A stretch of 21,818 nucleotides of DNA. Source: a virus. The translations under genes and the position numbers were made by a program. Location of the stretch: IMG/VR virus record IMGVR_UViG_3300005265_000149, positions 1-21,818 of that record; one strand, written 5' to 3'. The notes under the pieces were generated by a model, which searched no databases, was not told the origin of the DNA, and saw nothing but the letters and a program-made list of their open reading frames with translations. This document shows, piece after piece, positions 4,969 to 19,963 of the stretch (positions are counted from its first letter, which is position 1; each line of letters begins with the position of its first letter).

Positions 4969-6453
4969 ATGAATATAAAAAACCGAAAAGAATACGAAAA
5001 AGAACTACAAGCCTTGATTGATAGAATCAAGCGTCATGCTATCCCTTTTCCTAATGATACATTAGAAAAAAAAGAAGCAAGAAAAAAACGCTGTCTAAAT
5101 GATTTCTTTCTATTCTGCAAAACTTATTTTCCGCATTACTTCACAAAACCATTCGGAAAGTTTCATCATAAATTAATTCAAATTGCAAAGAAACAACAAT
5201 GTATCTCTGCAATAGCAGGACCACGAGGGCATGGAAAAACTGTTATTTTATCAATTGCTTATCCAATTTATCTTGCATTGAAAGAGCAGATTCATTTTCC
5301 TGTTTTTATATCAGAGAATAAAGATATAGCAAAGGCAAAAGTAGATGCAATGCGTGCAGAATTCACTTATAATGCTCGGATAATAAACGATTTTGGTAAA
5401 CAGATACGCACTGGTGATTGGCAAGATTACGATTTCACTATCTCAACTGGAGCACGATTCCTTGCTCAAGGATATAGACAAATGATAAAAGGACTGCTAC
5501 ACGGTCCTTATAGACCGGATTATGTTGTTTTTGATGATTTAGAAGGTCATCTATCAATAGATTCAGAGCGAATTTCAAAAAAAAAATTGGACTATATTAG
5601 AGGCGATGCATTCGGCGCACTGTCAAAAAATGGTAGAGTGCTGTGGCTCGCTAATCTAACTCATTCTGGCTCTGCAATTGCAAGATTTAAGAATGAATGT
5701 GATGAGCATCCAGAGAACCAACAGACAAGATTTTATTTATTTAAGGCAATAGATGATAATGGCAACCTACTCTGGCCTGAAGGTTTCACGAAAAAAGATT
5801 TAGATAAGATAAAAAATGCTATGGGAACTGTTAATTTTGAGCGTCATTATCAGATGAATCCTATTGTGGAAGGCGATGTTTTTAAAGAGCAATGGTTTAA
5901 ATTTATGGAATCCTTGTCTCCAGACAAGGATTTTATTAAGATTGTAACCTATATTGACCCATCACTTTCATCTAAAAAAACTGCTGACTATAAGGCAATA
6001 ATAACAATTGGATGGGATGGCGATAATTATTGTATTATTGATTGTTTTATACGAAAATGCTCAATTGAAACAATGATTGATTATTCTTATGATATATATT
6101 GGAGATATAAGCCCTGCATAATTGCTATGGAGGATAATTTTTGGCAACAGATTTTATTTCAAGATTATGATAGGAAAGCAAAAGAAAAGGGTTTTCATCT
6201 ACCTATAACAGGAGTAAATAATACAGTCCCAAAAACAATGAGAATTGAATCCTTGTCTCCACTTATAGAGCGTGGAAAAATATTATTTAATAGAAATATA
6301 GGTGATACAAAAATTTTAATTGAGCAATTACTCGGGTTCCCTGGTTTTCCAAATGATGATGGTCCAGACGCGCTGGAAGGAGCGATAAAACTGATAGAGA
6401 CCGTATCTGCAAAGCCAGTTTATTATAGTATAAAAAGGCGACAAAAATGGTAA
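4969..6453 (+). CDS. Terminase large subunit (494 aa), Mu gp28-like
   Basis: This is the ATP-driven DNA packaging motor and headful nuclease. Walker A is GPRGHGKT at residues 84-91 and Walker B is VVFDDLE at 186-192. A coupling-type motif (WLANLTHSGSA) follows near 226. The C-terminal RNase H-like nuclease begins with TYIDPSLSSKKTADYKA near 327-343 (first acidic residue D330), continues with AMEDNFWQ (E388) and ends with an NDDGPDALEGA block that supplies the last acidic residues. Length is usual for Mu-like large terminases. I chose ATG 4969 over the GTG at 4957, since the GTG lies inside the repeat that occupies the upstream gap. Synteny with the small subunit supports the call. Confidence 0.93.
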   Translation: MNIKNRKEYEKELQALIDRIKRHAIPFPNDTLEKKEARKKRCLNDFFLFCKTYFPHYFTKPFGKFHHKLIQIAKKQQCISAIAGPRGHGKTVILSIAYPIYLALKEQIHFPVFISENKDIAKAKVDAMRAEFTYNARIINDFGKQIRTGDWQDYDFTISTGARFLAQGYRQMIKGLLHGPYRPDYVVFDDLEGHLSIDSERISKKKLDYIRGDAFGALSKNGRVLWLANLTHSGSAIARFKNECDEHPENQQTRFYLFKAIDDNGNLLWPEGFTKKDLDKIKNAMGTVNFERHYQMNPIVEGDVFKEQWFKFMESLSPDKDFIKIVTYIDPSLSSKKTADYKAIITIGWDGDNYCIIDCFIRKCSIETMIDYSYDIYWRYKPCIIAMEDNFWQQILFQDYDRKAKEKGFHLPITGVNNTVPKTMRIESLSPLIERGKILFNRNIGDTKILIEQLLGFPGFPNDDGPDALEGAIKLIETVSAKPVYYSIKRRQKW

Positions 6454-8343: not shown

Positions 8344-8622
8344 ATGCCAGATGAGAATCTTCACCAGATACTTAAATCTATTGTAATTGATATTGTTTTA
8401 TATAATTTACACGCAAAGATTGCAGGTAAGGATATTCCAGAAATTCGTCATAAAAGATATGATAATTCAATTAAACTTCTTGAGAAAATATCAAAGGGCG
8501 AAATAAAAATCGGATTATCAAAATCAGAACAAACCGAGAATGTTTTTAGACCAGAATGGATTTCTAACAAGAGAATATTCCCAGAGGATAGAACAGTATC
8601 AGAGGGGGTTGGCGATGTTTAA
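8344..8622 (+). CDS. DUF1320-like phage protein (Mu gp36-like), 5' end disrupted
   Basis: The frame encodes a DUF1320-type head/neck accessory protein: the family pattern of LTDDD, an alternating A-I-x-x-A helix, Y-x-x-P, then a helix with IVIDIVLYNLHA and a YDNSIKLLEKISKGEIKIGL ending. Recognisable family sequence already starts near 8209 (NKEDFYTIIDLISLDELTDN), but between the in-frame stop at 8143 and 8344 there is no ATG, GTG or TTG. The first usable start is therefore the ATG at 8344, which would drop about 45 conserved residues. The missing start coincides with the edge of the 101-bp duplicated repeat. The 3' end overlaps the start of the portal gene, so translation of the two is coupled. 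It may be functionally dead or use a non-standard start such as ATA. Confidence 0.65.
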   Translation: MPDENLHQILKSIVIDIVLYNLHAKIAGKDIPEIRHKRYDNSIKLLEKISKGEIKIGLSKSEQTENVFRPEWISNKRIFPEDRTVSEGVGDV

Positions 8623-11600
8623 GATATTAAAGAGAAAAGATAAAAAACCCAGAAAATTACTGAATGAAATCACATACATAAAAGATCCTACAATAACTTT
8701 TGCATTAACATCAGAATTCACTCCTTCTGAGTTAAAACAAGCGATACATCAGTTCAGAGGTAAATATCCTGTTGATACGCCATCATTACTAAACCTACAA
8801 AAAATATTTGATGTTATGATGGATTATGACCCTACTTTACAAGGATTAATTGAGACAAGAGTTCTGGCTATTACTGGAAAGGATTATCAGTTTATATCTG
8901 CTGATGAAACGAAAAACGCTATTGAGCAGGCTGATTTTTGTAAGAATAATATTGAAAAATTATTCCCTGGATTGCTTAGAGAATTACTCTATACACGACT
9001 ACGGGGAGTATCTGTTATTGAAAAGATTTTTGATATACAGAATAATAAAATTGTTCTTGATAAAATTAAATCTTATAAAAGGGATTTATTTAGGATAAAA
9101 GATGGCACTATAGTGTATAAAGATGAGAATGGTCAGGTCTATGAATTAAATGAAGATAAATTTATTGTTCTATACGAACCAATGCCTATTTTATTACCAG
9201 TTGCGATATTTTATCTTTATAAATTTTATGCACTAAAAAACTGGGCTATTTATAGCGAAATATATGGGCAACCGCTCCGTGTTGGAAAATATAGGCAAGG
9301 TTCGTCAAAAGAAGATATTCAAACACTTAAAGATATGGTTTATAACTTGGGCAGTGATGCAGCTGCTGTAATATCTGAGAATACATTGATAGATTTCATT
9401 GAAGCATCACAAAAGCAAGCATCAATTGCAGTTTATAAAGATATGGCTGAATATGTAGATAAATGTGTTGCTATAAGAATATTAGGACAAGCACAGACAT
9501 CGGATACTCAAGGACAAATCGGAGCATTAGCAAAAGCAAAAGTTGCTGATTTGATTCGCAATGATATTTTACTCGCTGATGCTAAATGGCTTGAACAACA
9601 AATTGATAATATTTCTAAACAATTATGTGAATTAAATTTTAGCAATCCACAGCCACCCTCTTTTGATATTATAACCAAGCCACCTGTTGATATGAAACAA
9701 AGAATTGAAATAGATGAGAAATTATGGAATATGGGTGCTGTGGACTTCCCGGAAGATTATTTTCATAAGACATATAATATCCCTCTGCAAGAACCAAAAA
9801 AAAATAAAACAGTTCCCGCTCTGGAAAGCAGGGATACATATATGATAGTAAATATAAAAGGCAGCCCAAAAAGTGGGCAATATATCAGAAAAGTAGCAAA
9901 AATATTCAATAAGTTTGAAAAAGAACTCCAAAAGTCCAATAATTATGATGCACTATTTGAGACAATCGGGGATAAAAAGAAAAAGGAATCATTTGTTAAA
10001 GAATATGGAGAGATTTTTGCAGAGGCACTTAAATTAGCATATCTGAAAGGTCATTATCCTAAAAAGAAAATCTCTGCGTCTTTGCGTCTTTGCGGTAAGG
10101 AAGATGACTTTGACATTGATTATACTTTGTTTGATAAGAAAGCATTAAAGAATTTTGAAGAAGAAGCGTTCATTGTTGCTGGTATAAATATAGAAGAAGC
10201 ACTTGCAGATATAAAAAAATCAGCAGAAAAAGCAATATCACAGGGCATTCCTTTTATGGATTTTAAGAATGAAATCAAACTAAAGGGTTATACTATTGAG
10301 AATCCGTATTATCTTCGCACTAATTTTGATACTGGAATAAATAGTGCATATTTAGCAGGTAAATGGCAGGATTACGAAGATACAAAGGATGTTTTTCCTT
10401 ATCTTAAATATAAAACAGTTGGGGATGAATTGGTAAGGGAATCGCATGCTGAATTAGATGGCTATGTCCTGCCTCTTGACGACCCTTTCTGGGATACATA
10501 TTATCCGCCGAACGACTGGAACTGCTTTGATAAAGATACCGAAGTATATACAAATAAAGGATGGTTAAAATTTACAGAATTAAAAAATGATGAATTGTTT
10601 CTATCATTAGATCCTAATAATAAAAATGTAGAATGGGTTAGATCTATAAGACCTATATCATATCATTATAAAGGTAAAATGATTAAAATCAAAGGTCGGA
10701 ATTTTAATTTGATTGTTACTCCAAATCACAATATTTTAATACAAAAATCATGGGATAGACATGAGAAAAGAGATAAATTAAAATTTATAAAAGCCTCAGA
10801 AATAGCAAGTGGTGATAGATTTTATAGAACATGCCAATGGAAAGGAATAGATAAATCTATAATAAAAATAGCTGGATTAAAATTTAAAACTGAAACATTT
10901 ATAAAATTTATGGGATATTGGCTTGCTGAAGGTTCTTGTTCTATAAATAATAATAATCAATATGTAATAAAAATAGCACAAAACAATCAAATAAATAAAG
11001 AGAAAATAATTAAGAATCTTAAAGATTTTCCAACCAAATTATGGATTGGAAAAGATTGTATTTATATTAAACCAACTAAGCAATTAGGAGAATATTTAAA
11101 ACAATTTGGAAAATCTTATGAAAAATATGTACCTGATATAATTAAAAATATGTCATATAAATATTTAAAGATGTTCCTAAATGCATATAAATTAGGAGAC
11201 GGATATGATCAACCAGCAAAAATACATCCAATAAGTGGAAGAATATGTAAAGGAACACCTCATTATTTTACATCAAGTAAAAAAATGGCAGATGATCTTA
11301 CTGAAATAATATTGAAATGTGGTAAAGTACCTTCTATTAATTTAATGAAAAATAAAGGGGAAAAAGTAAAATTTAATAATGGTTCTTATATAATAAATCA
11401 TGATATATGGCGTATTAAAGAAACAAAATATCCATATTTTAATTTTAGAACTTATGAAGAGATTGATTATAATGATATGGTTTATTGTGTTGAACTTGAA
11501 AAATATCATATTCTTTGGGTAAGAAGGCGTGGCAAAACTGTATGGTGTGGAAATTGTCGCTGCTATACAGAGCAATTAACTGAAGAGGAAGCAAGTAAAG

Positions 11601-11710
11601 AAAGATTATTCAAAGAGAAACCACCGCATATCAAAATCGGTGATGAATTTAACAAAAATGCTGGTAAAACAGCACATATATTTGATAAATTTATAAAAGA
11701 AAAGGAGTAA
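8615..11710 (+). CDS. Portal (DUF935-type)-MuF head protein fusion interrupted by an intein (1031 aa)
   Basis: Residues 1 to about 410 fit the Mu gp29-like portal family (DUF935): EFTPSELKQAIHQ early, LQGLIETRVLAITG near 70-85, GVSVIEKIFD, a WAIYSEIYGQPLRVGKY block near 210-226 and a later IRILGQAQTSDTQGQIG stretch. Residues about 540 to the end are a MuF (Mu gp30, SPP1 gp7-like) head morphogenesis domain with YLRTNFDTGINSAYLAGKW, HAELDGYVLPLDDPFWDTYY and PPNDWNC/RCYTEQL. The last motif is split by a 344-residue intein at residues 637-980; without it the protein is 687 residues. Portal and MuF are separate genes in Mu. The ATG at 8615 is chosen over 8540 because AGAGGGGG lies just upstream and because residues before it do not resemble a portal. 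It overlaps the previous gene by 8 bp. Confidence 0.9.
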   Translation: MFKILKRKDKKPRKLLNEITYIKDPTITFALTSEFTPSELKQAIHQFRGKYPVDTPSLLNLQKIFDVMMDYDPTLQGLIETRVLAITGKDYQFISADETKNAIEQADFCKNNIEKLFPGLLRELLYTRLRGVSVIEKIFDIQNNKIVLDKIKSYKRDLFRIKDGTIVYKDENGQVYELNEDKFIVLYEPMPILLPVAIFYLYKFYALKNWAIYSEIYGQPLRVGKYRQGSSKEDIQTLKDMVYNLGSDAAAVISENTLIDFIEASQKQASIAVYKDMAEYVDKCVAIRILGQAQTSDTQGQIGALAKAKVADLIRNDILLADAKWLEQQIDNISKQLCELNFSNPQPPSFDIITKPPVDMKQRIEIDEKLWNMGAVDFPEDYFHKTYNIPLQEPKKNKTVPALESRDTYMIVNIKGSPKSGQYIRKVAKIFNKFEKELQKSNNYDALFETIGDKKKKESFVKEYGEIFAEALKLAYLKGHYPKKKISASLRLCGKEDDFDIDYTLFDKKALKNFEEEAFIVAGINIEEALADIKKSAEKAISQGIPFMDFKNEIKLKGYTIENPYYLRTNFDTGINSAYLAGKWQDYEDTKDVFPYLKYKTVGDELVRESHAELDGYVLPLDDPFWDTYYPPNDWNCFDKDTEVYTNKGWLKFTELKNDELFLSLDPNNKNVEWVRSIRPISYHYKGKMIKIKGRNFNLIVTPNHNILIQKSWDRHEKRDKLKFIKASEIASGDRFYRTCQWKGIDKSIIKIAGLKFKTETFIKFMGYWLAEGSCSINNNNQYVIKIAQNNQINKEKIIKNLKDFPTKLWIGKDCIYIKPTKQLGEYLKQFGKSYEKYVPDIIKNMSYKYLKMFLNAYKLGDGYDQPAKIHPISGRICKGTPHYFTSSKKMADDLTEIILKCGKVPSINLMKNKGEKVKFNNGSYIINHDIWRIKETKYPYFNFRTYEEIDYNDMVYCVELEKYHILWVRRRGKTVWCGNCRCYTEQLTEEEASKERLFKEKPPHIKIGDEFNKNAGKTAHIFDKFIKEKE
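10067..10096. repeat. CTCTGCGTCTTTGCGG-type repeat inside the portal-MuF gene
   Basis: TCTCTGCGTCTTTGCGTCTT then TGCGGTAAGG reads in frame as ISASLRLCGKE at residues about 486-496 of the fusion protein. It is a variant of the CACAGAG-type dispersed elements elsewhere in the window. It lies between the portal and MuF parts, a position that tolerates extra residues. Confidence 0.6.
10523..11554 (+). other. Intein with LAGLIDADG homing endonuclease domain (344 aa)
   Basis: The intein starts with Cys (block A CFDKDTEVYTNKGWLKFTEL) and ends with Asn followed by a Cys as first C-extein residue (VWCGN/C). Block B is NLIVTPNHNIL, with the usual T-x-x-H. Two LAGLIDADG-type helices are visible, FMGYWLAEGS and MFLNAYKLGDGYD, with the acidic residues needed for DNA cleavage. 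Block F is MVYCVELEKYHILWV. The penultimate residue is Gly instead of the common His. Removing residues 637-980 rejoins PPNDWN with CRCYTEQ, restoring the conserved MuF motif, which fixes both boundaries. All splicing residues other than the penultimate His are present, so splicing is expected. Confidence 0.93.
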
Positions 11711-13302: not shown

Positions 13303-13935
13303 TTACACCTCCAAATATAGTTGGTCTGCTTCCTTATGGCAGAGATAATATCTCCCTGTTCTATGTCCACGAAGATTAGGAAGTCTAAATCCAACCTTTT
13401 TCAAAACATTCTCATATTTCTGTACTGATGAACGACTGGAATCAAGCAACTTTGCAGTTTCAATTTGCGTTAACTGTAACCAACGATAATGAAGCAATTT
13501 CTTAAACCAAATCTCACTCCTATTGCTATTGCGTTCTAAATAAAGGAATATCAACTCAGGCAACAATTGCGGATCAATCTGGCTGGCAAATTGTTTTACT
13601 CTGAAATAACTTTCTACTAATTCTCGCTGAACTCTCCACGATAAATCATCTGTTAATGACTTTACCAACATCAAATAACCGGTCTCGGTGAATAGGTTTA
13701 ATCTTACAGTCATTTTTGAAGATACACAAAATTTTTGGGTATCTTTTTTCCCTTCCAAATGGAAGTAATCTTTACCTTCAATGAAATATCTTCTGTTTCT
13801 TCTGAAATTTTCTTGAAGGTTTCCTACCGGGACTTTATGCACAATAGCAATATCTTGATAGGTTATAACTCTTTGCCCTTTGTATTCACGGACCGGCAAA
13901 GTTTGTCCGCTGATGGTTATTTGCTTTTCCATCAT
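13303..13935 (-). CDS. ORF6N-domain phage antirepressor (210 aa)
   Basis: Residues about 6-115 match the ORF6N domain of phage antirepressors: ITISGQTLPVREYKGQRVIT, then QDIAIVHKVPVGNLQENFRR, NRRYFIEGKDYFHLEG, and later LFTETGYLMLVKSLTDDLSW with an RELVESYFRV end. The C-terminal part has a helix-turn-helix (TQIETAKLLDSSRSSVQKYE, near 157-176) followed by a wing. Such proteins counter a prophage repressor and favour lytic growth. AGGAGG at 13943-13938 is 2 bp before the first ATG and 5 bp before a second ATG at 13932, so the second may be the true start. That Shine-Dalgarno is complementary to a side arm of the C4-like RNA just upstream, which suggests translational silencing. Confidence 0.87.
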   Translation of the reverse strand: MMEKQITISGQTLPVREYKGQRVITYQDIAIVHKVPVGNLQENFRRNRRYFIEGKDYFHLEGKKDTQKFCVSSKMTVRLNLFTETGYLMLVKSLTDDLSWRVQRELVESYFRVKQFASQIDPQLLPELIFLYLERNSNRSEIWFKKLLHYRWLQLTQIETAKLLDSSRSSVQKYENVLKKVGFRLPNLRGHRTGRYYLCHKEADQLYLEV

Positions 13936-13965
13936 TTCCTCCTAGCGTATTAATTCTTTTGGTAT

Positions 13966-14034
13966 AAAAAAGCCGAGATCGAATCCGCCACACTAGGAAG
14001 CGTCCCTGCCCTCACGAGCAAGGAAATCTCGGCT
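13966..14034 (-). ncRNA. C4-like antisense RNA upstream of the antirepressor
   Basis: On the minus strand the segment folds into a Y. The outer 9-bp stem is 14034-14026 with 13979-13971. One arm is an 8-bp hairpin (14023-14016 with 14011-14004) closed by a GUGA tetraloop at 14015-14012. The second arm is a 4-bp stem (14002-13999 with 13989-13986) with a 9-nt loop. Six U residues follow the outer stem, so it ends like an intrinsic terminator. The second arm (14000-13989) can pair over 12 nt, with some G-U pairs, with 13949-13938, which holds the antirepressor AGGAGG. Y shape, place and target match the C4 antisense RNA of phages P1 and P7. Confidence 0.75.
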
Positions 14035-14070
14035 CTAAATTCTAAACTTAAAACAATAAATTCCCTTTGA

Positions 14071-14091
14071 GGCAGGGACAGCCTCTAGTGT
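14071..14091 (-). other. Upstream segment complementary to the C4-like RNA arms
   Basis: The minus-strand segment is complementary, with a few mismatches, to most of 13990-14010, covering the 3' side of the tetraloop arm and the loop of the second arm. It could be a second a/b target, a decoy, or part of an alternative fold that opens the Y. Part of it overlaps the proposed -10 box, so only some of it would be transcribed from that promoter. Confidence 0.5.
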
Positions 14092-14117
14092 TTAAGATTC
14101 AGCGACAAACCTGTCAA
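14089..14117 (-). promoter_or_regulatory. Candidate promoter for C4-like RNA and antirepressor
   Basis: TTGACA (14117-14112), a 17-bp spacer and TAAACA (14094-14089) read leftward. Transcription would begin near 14083, ahead of the Y-shaped RNA and the antirepressor. The -35 lies in an inverted repeat (CCCTTTGA at 14063-14070 with TCAAAGGG at 14114-14121), a possible operator. Confidence 0.5.
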
Positions 14118-14148
14118 AGGGTGAAATGAGTGTCAAGTTTTTTAAAAA

Positions 14149-14167
14149 TTTAATCAAAACAATTAAA
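14149..14167 (-). terminator. Weak AT-only hairpin at the end of the barrel-like gene
   Basis: TTTAAT and ATTAAA form a 6-bp stem around a 7-nt loop overlapping the stop of the 14163-14564 gene. Read leftward it is followed by five U residues. All pairs are A-U, so termination would be inefficient. Confidence 0.3.
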
Positions 14168-17920: not shown

Positions 17921-19963
17921 TTATCCTAATCCTAATTGATCTTCTAATTCTCTCAATCTTTTAGCCTTTGCTTTATTCTCTTTCTCCTCTTCACTCTCTT
18001 CATATCTAAATGATTCCATATGTTGCTTTATTCTTTTATCAATTTTTACATATATATCATCATCTTTATTTTTATGATATTCAAGAAGAATATTGGAATT
18101 CTCCTGCCCAATCAACATATTATCTATAGGATCAACATCCCCAAGCATTTCTAATTCTTTTTTTGCTAAATATTTAGTTTGTTTTTTTAGCCATGCCTGT
18201 TCTCTAATGTTCCGTTTTAATCGTTCAATGTCCAATTCTTTGCTTTCACTTATTTTTATCATTGGATGAATGCTTTTAATTGCATGTGCTTTACATATTA
18301 ATTGTTTTTCCTTATCATATACTAATATCCACCCCAAATCATTAAAATCATATCGTATATCAACCTGCTCTCCCTGCCTACCATACATATTTTTATGATA
18401 ATAATTTATACCCAGGAATTCAATTCCGTTTCTACGGATGACTCTATTTTCATCTGCTAACATCAGATAATAGAGTTCCTCCTCATTTACGCCGGGCCCC
18501 TTTCCAGCCTCCCATATCTCTCTGGGGGTTTTTCCTTTCAACCCCCGATGTGGTTTATTTACATAATAATCCATCCAGCCCTGTATCAATAGCATTGCTT
18601 CATGCAACTGAAGTGGCTTTCTTTCATATATCTTTTTAATCCATTTTTCATTTCTTAATAAATACGGTGGTTTATCTTCAATACTTCTGCCCCGATATGA
18701 AGGCATTAACCGTTCAAATGACTCATTAAAAGTACCAAAAAATCGTTCTACCGTTTTTGCTCGTGCATTATAAGGCATAGCAAAGCATTCATCAATTCCC
18801 AATCTGCAATATAATCCACCTAATTCCCATTCTAAATCTATCTCTCTTGTGAAAAACTTTGATTTAAACGCCTTGCCATTATCAAGATATACAGATTTGG
18901 GATACTTGCCTAAGTTAATAATAGCATTCCGAAGTGCATTAGAAATCGCCTGTGTATTTTCCTGAAGCATAATAGACCCACCAGCAGGATAACGAGAAGC
19001 CCAGTCCAAAAACACTATAAAAACCATCCTTGTTTGCTTGCCTGTTATTGGATTTATTATATCAAAATTCAATCTATGCCCATCTGCAATTAACACATCG
19101 CCAACATTTAACACAGACGGATCTCGCTGGACATACTTAATCATTTTGTTTGTAAGAACTGATTCGCCTTCACGCAACAATGTTACTATATCTTTATGTT
19201 CGTTTGTATAATCTTCTAAAAACCTCCGCATCGTTGCGTCAGAACATTTAATCTCTATTTGTTCCTTTTTGAATTTATACTTCACAAGATTTATACATGT
19301 GCCTATTGATATACTGTTTTGATGCAGATAAAATTTTAATAATTGTTTTTTTACTTGCTCTGGAACCTTCCTCCCCTTTTTTGATTTGTTATATTTTAAT
19401 ATAAGTGATGTGTAATCATTACCTGAATCTCGATATATCTTTATCCAATGACGAACCGTACTCTCTTTTATTTTACCAACGATATTATAAATATTCTCAT
19501 CAAGATTAGAAGTGTTATATGCATTAACATATTCAGTGAAAGCCGATGTTTTCTTTTTGCCTTTTCGTTTTGCTGAATTCATGTATTTAATGATATTTCT
19601 ACACAAAAGCCCCTTTGCCTTTGCTAATTTATCCTCCTGATGCAGCGCAGGCAAAGAACCCTGTGCTACATCAAAGGGATAATCTGCTTTTTGGTTACTC
19701 GGGTTACTCGGTTTTTGGTTACTCGGGTTACTCGGTTCTTGGTTACTCGGGTTACTCGGTTCTTGGTTACTCGGGTTACTCGGTTTTTGGTTACTCGGGT
19801 TACTCGGTTTTTGGTTACTCGGGACAAAATAATATTTAATTTTAATATTTCCTTTTACAACCTCTATTTTCTCTTCCCATCCTTCTTTTTTTGCTCTTTT
19901 ATAAACCGCAGGGCGAGAAATATTCAACATCTTTGATATTTGCTTAGTAGTAAGCCATTTCAT
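17921..19963 (-). CDS. MuA-type DDE transposase (680 aa)
   Basis: The enzyme cuts and joins phage ends to target DNA. The N-terminus is an HTH (WLTTKQISKMLNISRPAVYK). A repeat-rich linker (about 47-110) follows, with 8-residue SNQKPSNP units and a YPFDVAQG segment. A second DNA-binding region is at about 120-260, with KESTVRHWIKIYRDSG. The rve-type catalytic core has Asp294 in LIADGHRLNF, Asp361 in VYLDNGKAFKS and Glu406 in ARAKTVERFFGTF; all three acidic residues are present. A Mu-transposase C-terminal barrel and a charged tail follow. I chose the ATG at 19963, with AAGGA 7 nt upstream, over 20014, which lacks one and overlaps the previous gene. Confidence 0.93.
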   Translation of the reverse strand: MKWLTTKQISKMLNISRPAVYKRAKKEGWEEKIEVVKGNIKIKYYFVPSNQKPSNPSNQKPSNPSNQEPSNPSNQEPSNPSNQKPSNPSNQKADYPFDVAQGSLPALHQEDKLAKAKGLLCRNIIKYMNSAKRKGKKKTSAFTEYVNAYNTSNLDENIYNIVGKIKESTVRHWIKIYRDSGNDYTSLILKYNKSKKGRKVPEQVKKQLLKFYLHQNSISIGTCINLVKYKFKKEQIEIKCSDATMRRFLEDYTNEHKDIVTLLREGESVLTNKMIKYVQRDPSVLNVGDVLIADGHRLNFDIINPITGKQTRMVFIVFLDWASRYPAGGSIMLQENTQAISNALRNAIINLGKYPKSVYLDNGKAFKSKFFTREIDLEWELGGLYCRLGIDECFAMPYNARAKTVERFFGTFNESFERLMPSYRGRSIEDKPPYLLRNEKWIKKIYERKPLQLHEAMLLIQGWMDYYVNKPHRGLKGKTPREIWEAGKGPGVNEEELYYLMLADENRVIRRNGIEFLGINYYHKNMYGRQGEQVDIRYDFNDLGWILVYDKEKQLICKAHAIKSIHPMIKISESKELDIERLKRNIREQAWLKKQTKYLAKKELEMLGDVDPIDNMLIGQENSNILLEYHKNKDDDIYVKIDKRIKQHMESFRYEESEEEKENKAKAKRLRELEDQLGLG
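19638..19673. repeat. Imperfect palindromic repeat in the transposase linker (DVAQG-type)
   Basis: TGATGCAGCGCAGG (19638-19651) and CCTGTGCTACATCA (19660-19673) pair at 12 of 14 positions around an 8-nt loop. The coding strand reads FDVAQGSLPALHQ, which recalls DVAQG-type dispersed repeats of uncultured bacteria. It lies just after the 24-bp tandem repeats. Confidence 0.65.
19693..19823. repeat. 24-bp tandem repeat array in the transposase linker
   Basis: Five 24-bp units (starts 19693, 19717, 19741, 19765 and 19789) and an 11-bp partial unit have the core GGTTACTCGGGTTACTCGG followed by TTTTT or TTCTT. Coding strand units read SNQKPSNP or SNQEPSNP. Each unit itself holds two GGTTACTCGG half-units. 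Unit length is a multiple of three, so the frame is kept. There are no spacers, so it is not CRISPR. Confidence 0.95.

Follow-up and report, generated by a model that had tools for sequence, protein, structure and literature searches.

We identified an RNA cassette in the leader of a phage antirepressor gene that shares its parts and their order with the C4 system of phages P1 and P7, and we consider it probable (roughly 0.83) that a C4-type antisense cassette controls this ORF6N antirepressor. The DNA analyzed (the window) is a 21,818-nucleotide stretch from a Mu-like, AT-rich phage (GC 0.326). The same cassette is found in three other environmental phage contigs (L005, L135 and L137). The features of the window, all on the minus strand, are as follows:

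14131..14136 (-): TTGACA, the probable -35 of the leader promoter (kept upstream of the C4-like RNA in four contigs)
14057..14107 (-): a1b1-like pseudo-target that can pair with the C4-like RNA and mimics the ant Shine-Dalgarno (SD) region (duplex energy, layout of the relatives)
13966..14034 (-): C4-like Y-shaped RNA with the U-run of a putative intrinsic terminator (fold, matches to model R2, paired outer stem)
14003..14024 (-): arm 1, 9 bp, with a GUGA tetraloop at 14015-14012 (fold; CGTGAG is common to 4 of 4 relatives, the window included)
13986..14002 (-): arm 2, with b' (CUUCCUAGUGUG, 14000-13989) on its loop and 3' side, complementary to the SD (pairing)
13981..13985 (-): junction segment a' (GAUUC), which can pair with GAAUU 5' of the SD (pairing; relatives alike)
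13966..13971 (-): U6 directly 3' of the outer stem (sequence; T-runs at the same place in L005, L135 and L137)
13938..13956 (-): target, comprising a2 (GAAUU, 13956-13952) and b2 (UACGCUAGGAGG, 13949-13938), which holds the SD AGGAGG (sequence, pairing)
13303..13935 (-): ORF6N antirepressor gene, 210 aa, ATG start (Pfam PF10543, 3.2e-18; PHROG anti-repressor, 4e-35; 44% identical to that of L005)

A first-pass annotation of this DNA had named the downstream ORF an ORF6N antirepressor, and both profile matches agree. The start codon lies 30 nt past the 3' end of the RNA with no ORF between, which places the RNA in the leader of the ant operon, as is the case for C4. The same annotation took ORF6N to be a different antirepressor family from that of the known C4 systems. 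This does not hold, as the Ant protein of the P1-like phage RCS47 consists of ORF6N and ANT domains, and canonical Rfam C4 is also found upstream of many ORF6N antirepressors.

The 69-nt minus-strand RNA (14034-13966) has a computed fold of a three-way Y at -32 kcal/mol, an energy reached by none of 200 dinucleotide shuffles (z -3.5). This agrees with the earlier description of a Y with a GUGA-capped arm and a terminal U-run. The RNA consists of a 10-bp outer stem, the 9-bp arm 1, a 4-bp arm 2 with the loop UCCUAGUGU, and the terminal U6. The outer stem, tetraloop arm 1, open-loop arm 2 and unpaired 3' junction follow one another in the order of the RF01695 consensus. The outer stem is predicted to double as an intrinsic terminator. 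A T-run follows it in L005, L135 and L137 as well, whereas none of 6 canonical C4 loci and only 1 of 32 sRNA-Xcc1 loci have one. A second C4-like RNA considered on the plus strand (14055-14150) was rejected; its fold is within chance (z 0.18), and its likeness to C4 is that of the complement of a1b1.

Two segments of the RNA are complementary to the SD region of the antirepressor, as in C4. The arm-2 segment CUUCCUAGUGUG (14000-13989) pairs with UACGCUAGGAGG (13949-13938) over 12 contiguous nucleotides, and the junction GAUUC (13985-13981) pairs with GAAUU (13956-13952). Of 1000 shuffled RNAs, 12 contained a contiguous run of 12 nt, and 3 attained the energy of the whole RNA:SD duplex. The 12-nt pairing over AGGAGG proposed in the first-pass annotation is thus found where it was placed and exceeds what shuffled sequences give. 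That account of the parts was correct for the Y and the SD pairing, but it omitted the junction pairing, the a1b1-like copy (14107-14057) and TTGACA (14136-14131).

The a1b1-like segment pairs with the C4-like RNA over most of its length at -55.7 kcal/mol. Shuffled RNAs average -35.6 +- 4.2 kcal/mol and none of 500 was as strong; with the leader shuffled, p is 0.000 in the window. The segment occupies the a1b1 position of the P1 system, and both its pairing and its position identify it as the upstream copy. Within it, nucleotides 14100-14082 (GAATCTTAAACACTAGAGG) resemble the ant SD region (GAATTAATACGCTAGGAGG). Single alignments of this SD mimic are weak (p 0.02-0.14 in the four leaders). However, in the window, L005, L135 and L137 alike, the mimic aligns best from leader offset 58-60 of 125 onward, and it is persuasive because these positions coincide rather than because of any single alignment score. 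The distance from TTGACA to the C4-like RNA downstream is 103, 101, 101 and 95 nt in the window, L005, L135 and L137, respectively, and the spacer is 17 nt in each. The window's -10, CAGGTT at 14113-14108, is weak, and a promoter scan of the window does not list the TTGACA promoter.

The L005 contig belongs to a different Mu-like phage (MuA 41% identical over 506 aa, ORF6N protein 44%). L135 and L137 came from a pattern search built on arm 1 plus the anti-SD core; neither had been used to derive the pattern. Model R2, built from the four members, scores them at 76-81 bits, and the next best match in the 72 sources searched has 14 bits. Common to all four are the upstream TTGACA, the SD mimic, the Y RNA and the T-run at the outer stem, with 36-51 nt from the end of the outer stem to the start codon. 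A T-run terminator after the a1b1 part is also present in L135 and L137 and is not clear in the window. The L135 cassette guards a Bro-N antirepressor gene. The L137 cassette (4984-5208), from a Mu-like phage, is followed by a 74-aa ORF that has no known domain and is not clearly an antirepressor; it may be a new regulator or a leader ORF of the Icd type.

The outer stem is 100% paired in all four members, with G-C to C-G and G-C to A-U changes affecting both sides. A third change, U-A to C-G, is apparent by eye when the one-base gap is set at the stem (GAUU in the window and L005, GACU in L135 and L137). These covariation counts do not beat column shuffles because only four members were found, and they are supportive only. 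The arms and their targets also change together. After a constant CUUCC, UAGUGUG pairs with UACGCUA in the window, UUGGGUUU with AAACUCAA beyond a short bulge in L005, UUGUG with CACAA in L137, and UUG with CAA in L135. Similarly, each junction matches its own target (GAUUC:GAAUU in the window, GGUC:GACC in L005, GAC:GUC in L137 and GAAC:GUUC in L135). The p values for pairing with the SD are 0.003 (window), 0.001 (L005), 0.012 (L137) and 0.166 (L135), and those for pairing with the leader are 0.000, 0.002, 0.000 and 0.028, in the same order. Of 25 C4-type RNAs, the cognate one is the best binder of the SD and of the leader, both in the window and in L005. Anatomy and complementarity are kept in four phage contigs while the sequence changes. 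The first-pass annotation had named two grounds for abandoning its reading, namely the lack of both a C4 match and covariation, or SDs not complementary to the arm. There is no C4 match, but in the relatives arm and target pairs covary and the SDs are complementary, so neither ground applies; the outer-stem counts stay within column shuffles.

An ordinary rho-independent terminator or structured leader might be complementary to the SD by chance, CUUCC-like sequence being anti-SD by nature. The anti-SD core UUCC alone fits any SD, and the SD pairing of L135 lies within shuffles. However, with the SD core fixed and the remaining target shuffled, the pairing still reaches past the core in the window (p = 0.019) and L005 (p = 0.005). 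The concerted changes of arm and target, an a1b1 mimic whose offset is the same in the four leaders despite their divergence, and a position and order matching those of canonical C4 loci also argue against chance, which we regard as highly improbable.

Other searches for the cassette returned few candidates. The repeated-core pattern GCAGGGAC..TAGTG had four matches in viral contigs, none of them C4-like, and the pattern GAGATTYCCNNNCTCGTGAG and an outer-stem/terminator pattern each had the L005 phage as the only real match. A MuA search of viral contigs gave no relatives. There was no real match to model R1 in 299 Bacillota genomes or to model R2 in 398 Pseudomonadota genomes, and the loop core is absent from the isolate phages searched. 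Four weak R2 matches (E 0.003-0.008) were set aside as they have no cassette layout. A further candidate in a Mu-like contig (L080:2379-2465) has a Y fold with the arm-2 loop UCCACAGG facing the SD CCUGUGGG / CCTGTGGG, an upstream copy AACCTGTGG, and no Rfam match; its pairing energies are within those of shuffles and it was not counted.

An Rfam scan of the whole window returned no family at its gathering score. The C4 (RF01695), c4-a1b1 (RF03163) and sRNA-Xcc1 (RF02221) models had no match at E<=10 on 13900-14160 (261 bases), and an RF01695 search of G000 had none either. The window RNA accordingly reaches neither the 45-bit gathering threshold of RF01695 nor the 53-bit threshold of RF02221. 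Positive controls for RF01695 score 62-75 bits. The C4 model matches upstream of ant in RCS47 and upstream of ORF6N antirepressors in L006-L010, L012, L013 and L020, with a further match in L087; upstream of C4 in the controls there are matches to c4-a1b1 (L012, L020) and isrK (L012, L020, L022). The C4 covariance model check suggested in the first-pass annotation is therefore negative, although E<=10 was allowed. Its C4-like antisense reading is well supported by the Y architecture, the bipartite a'/b' pairing, the a1b1 mimic and the three divergent relatives; membership in RF01695 is not. The window RNA falls outside RF01695 by test and is best described, from its sequence and predicted fold, as a variant of the C4 kind that forms a separate sequence family, with the outer stem fused to an apparent intrinsic terminator. 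The absence of an Rfam C4 or c4-a1b1 match, the small number of members (four), the L135 SD pairing (p 0.17), the modest SD pairing of L137 and its domainless downstream ORF, and the predicted cis pairing of a1b1 with the C4-like RNA in the window count against the cassette reading.

The arm order of the Y, the anti-SD arm-2 loop and the upstream mimic are common to both RF01695 and RF02221, and it is possible, though doubtful, that the window RNA is a degenerate member of one of them and not a separate family. Neither model matches at E up to 10 on the 261 bases, RF01695 finds nothing in G000, and R2 run over the canonical C4 and sRNA-Xcc1 RNAs reports none of them. Additionally, the outer stem in the window family is 9-10 bp and ends on a U-run, compared with about 17 bp and no U-run in canonical C4.

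We propose that a promoter at approximately 14136-14108 makes a leader that would contain, in order, the a1b1-like segment, the C4-like RNA, the SD and ant. The Y would close on the U-run, where much of the transcription probably stops, freeing an RNA of roughly 70 nt. Such release by termination is likely, since U6 directly follows the outer stem; the three relatives have a U-run there too, and canonical C4 does not. The freed RNA would bind the bipartite ant SD site on the read-through mRNA by two segments, b' in the arm-2 loop and a' in the 3' junction. With the SD covered, ant translation would be blocked and the prophage kept quiet, whereas Ant, when made, would presumably relieve the phage repressor. 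The a1b1 copy may compete for the C4-like RNA, in cis or in trans, and so tune the switch. The order of promoter, a1b1, C4, SD and ant is that of P1 and P7, and canonical C4 and c4-a1b1 likewise precede ORF6N antirepressors elsewhere.

In the window only, pairing of a1b1 with C4 in cis (42 pairs in the MFE structure) is favoured over the Y by about 7-11 kcal/mol, the upper value applying when the transcript is taken to begin near 14101. In L005, L135, L137 and four canonical C4 loci, the penalty for forming the Y is no more than about 1 kcal/mol. Because the a1b1:C4 helix outcompetes the Y in the window, free Y RNA may be rarer there. The window may lean toward cis control, or the predicted transcript start may be wrong.

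These energies bear on an arrangement that acts exclusively in cis as an attenuator, with the Y as terminator and a1b1 as antiterminator. Pairing of a1b1 with C4 would then give read-through and formation of the Y would give a stop, with no RNA acting in trans. The outer stem closed by a U-run in 4 of 4 relatives, the window included, agrees with this, as does the a1b1:C4 helix of the window, which is predicted to break the terminator stem and to be ~11 kcal/mol more stable. However, an attenuator has no need of SD complementarity, yet 4 of 4 RNAs have anti-SD arm-2 loops and junctions matching sequence upstream of the SD. The Y state is also as stable as any alternative in L005, L135 and L137, and we consider attenuation alone unlikely. 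Another reading of rather low probability, which we put forward tentatively, is that the antisense RNA is itself the terminator structure and a1b1 the antiterminator, so that ant would be controlled twice, by attenuation in cis and by masking of the SD in trans. The cis branch may dominate in the window, given the 42 predicted a1b1:C4 pairs.

Among the closest known systems is P1/P7 C4 (RF01695) with c4-a1b1 (RF03163). There too, the leader of an antirepressor operon encodes a Y RNA whose arm-2 loop and 3' junction are complementary to the SD region of ant, an a1b1 mimic lies upstream and, in RCS47, the Ant protein has an ORF6N domain. Apart from the outer stem, the systems differ in the distance from the RNA 3' end to ant (272 nt in RCS47 and 30 nt in the window, where there is no icd ORF between). 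The canonical C4 models do not match the window RNA, which comes from an AT-rich Mu-like phage. P1 C4 is cut from its precursor. The expression of Ant in P1 is regulated by the C4 antisense RNA and Icd (PMC8201110).

IsrK of Gifsy-1 is a small RNA upstream of the stable STnc1160, with which it has complementary sequence; both precede orf45 and anrP, an anti-repressor gene (PMC4825925). The IsrK model (IsrK/STnc1160, RF01394) matches at the a1b1 position in L012, L020 and L022. However, IsrK activates anrP translation in trans, whereas the window cassette is predicted to repress. The P4 CI RNA, with seqA and seqC, is a phage immunity RNA derived from the leader that encodes it, and sites complementary to it lie on either side (PMC4825925). 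By description, it acts by transcription termination, whereas the downstream site in the window covers the SD.

A 2010 survey assigned the C4 RNA motif to Proteobacteria and their phages (PMC2864571). Sequence models for C4 find close relatives only, and the same RNA logic, a leader antisense RNA with a target mimic guarding an antirepressor, appears to recur in Mu-like phages with unrelated sequence and a fused terminator. The cassette family yields a search rule based on architecture and complementarity.

The sRNA-Xcc1 RNA (RF02221) also resembles a C4-type leader antisense RNA. It is found just upstream of ORF6N at two loci (L068:2369-2454 and L085:2172-2258); in both, the arm-2 loop fits the SD downstream, and the junction fits a copy upstream. 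We analyzed 32 RF02221 loci, of which 30 were newly drawn from Pseudomonadota (L105-L134) in addition to L068 and L085. In most of them, 8-13 nt of complementary sequence lie upstream, as a rule at a distance of 70-137 nt and in many cases with p<=0.05; about half have downstream matches of 7-10 nt. The downstream ORFs sampled include Bro-N, KilA-N, P22_AR_N, Rha, ORF6N and SymE. The likeness to the window RNA is in the Y-shaped leader RNA, the arm-2 loop complementary to a downstream SD and the upstream copy about 70-137 nt away. However, sRNA-Xcc1 is a different sequence family whose model misses the window, and as a rule it has no terminal U-run. Published descriptions present sRNA-Xcc1 as an integron sRNA linked to virulence, and it has been placed upstream of symE in integron cassettes with no mechanism given (PMC12444791). 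Our literature search found no paper tying it to an antirepressor. Taken with the window cassette, the sRNA-Xcc1 result suggests that C4-type control, far from being peculiar to P1, is in general use for phage antirepressors and some toxins.

Several further observations were made in these contigs. Matches to the type II hammerhead ribozyme score well above gathering in two viral contigs with ORF6N genes, L074:5181-5246 (-) and L085:4045-4115 (+). Repeats resembling CRISPR-DR14 lie near ORF6N genes in the viral-classed contigs L055, L031 and L058, with many on both sides in L055.

In the window itself, positions 8540-11710 encode a portal/minor head fusion protein that appears to carry an intein-like insertion (the NCFDKDTEVYTNKGW stretch). 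A PHROG 'thymidylate synthase' profile matches residues 660-774. The L005 phage has the same fusion without the insertion. The N-terminal part of the Mu-type transposase (19640-19840) has SNQKPSNP/SNQEPSNP repeats, and short HRDTE(D/N)TE peptides occur in further ORFs of the window. A TTENTEKK stretch is also present in the L005 phage transposase, and the shared peptide stretches suggest that the hosts of the two phages are related.
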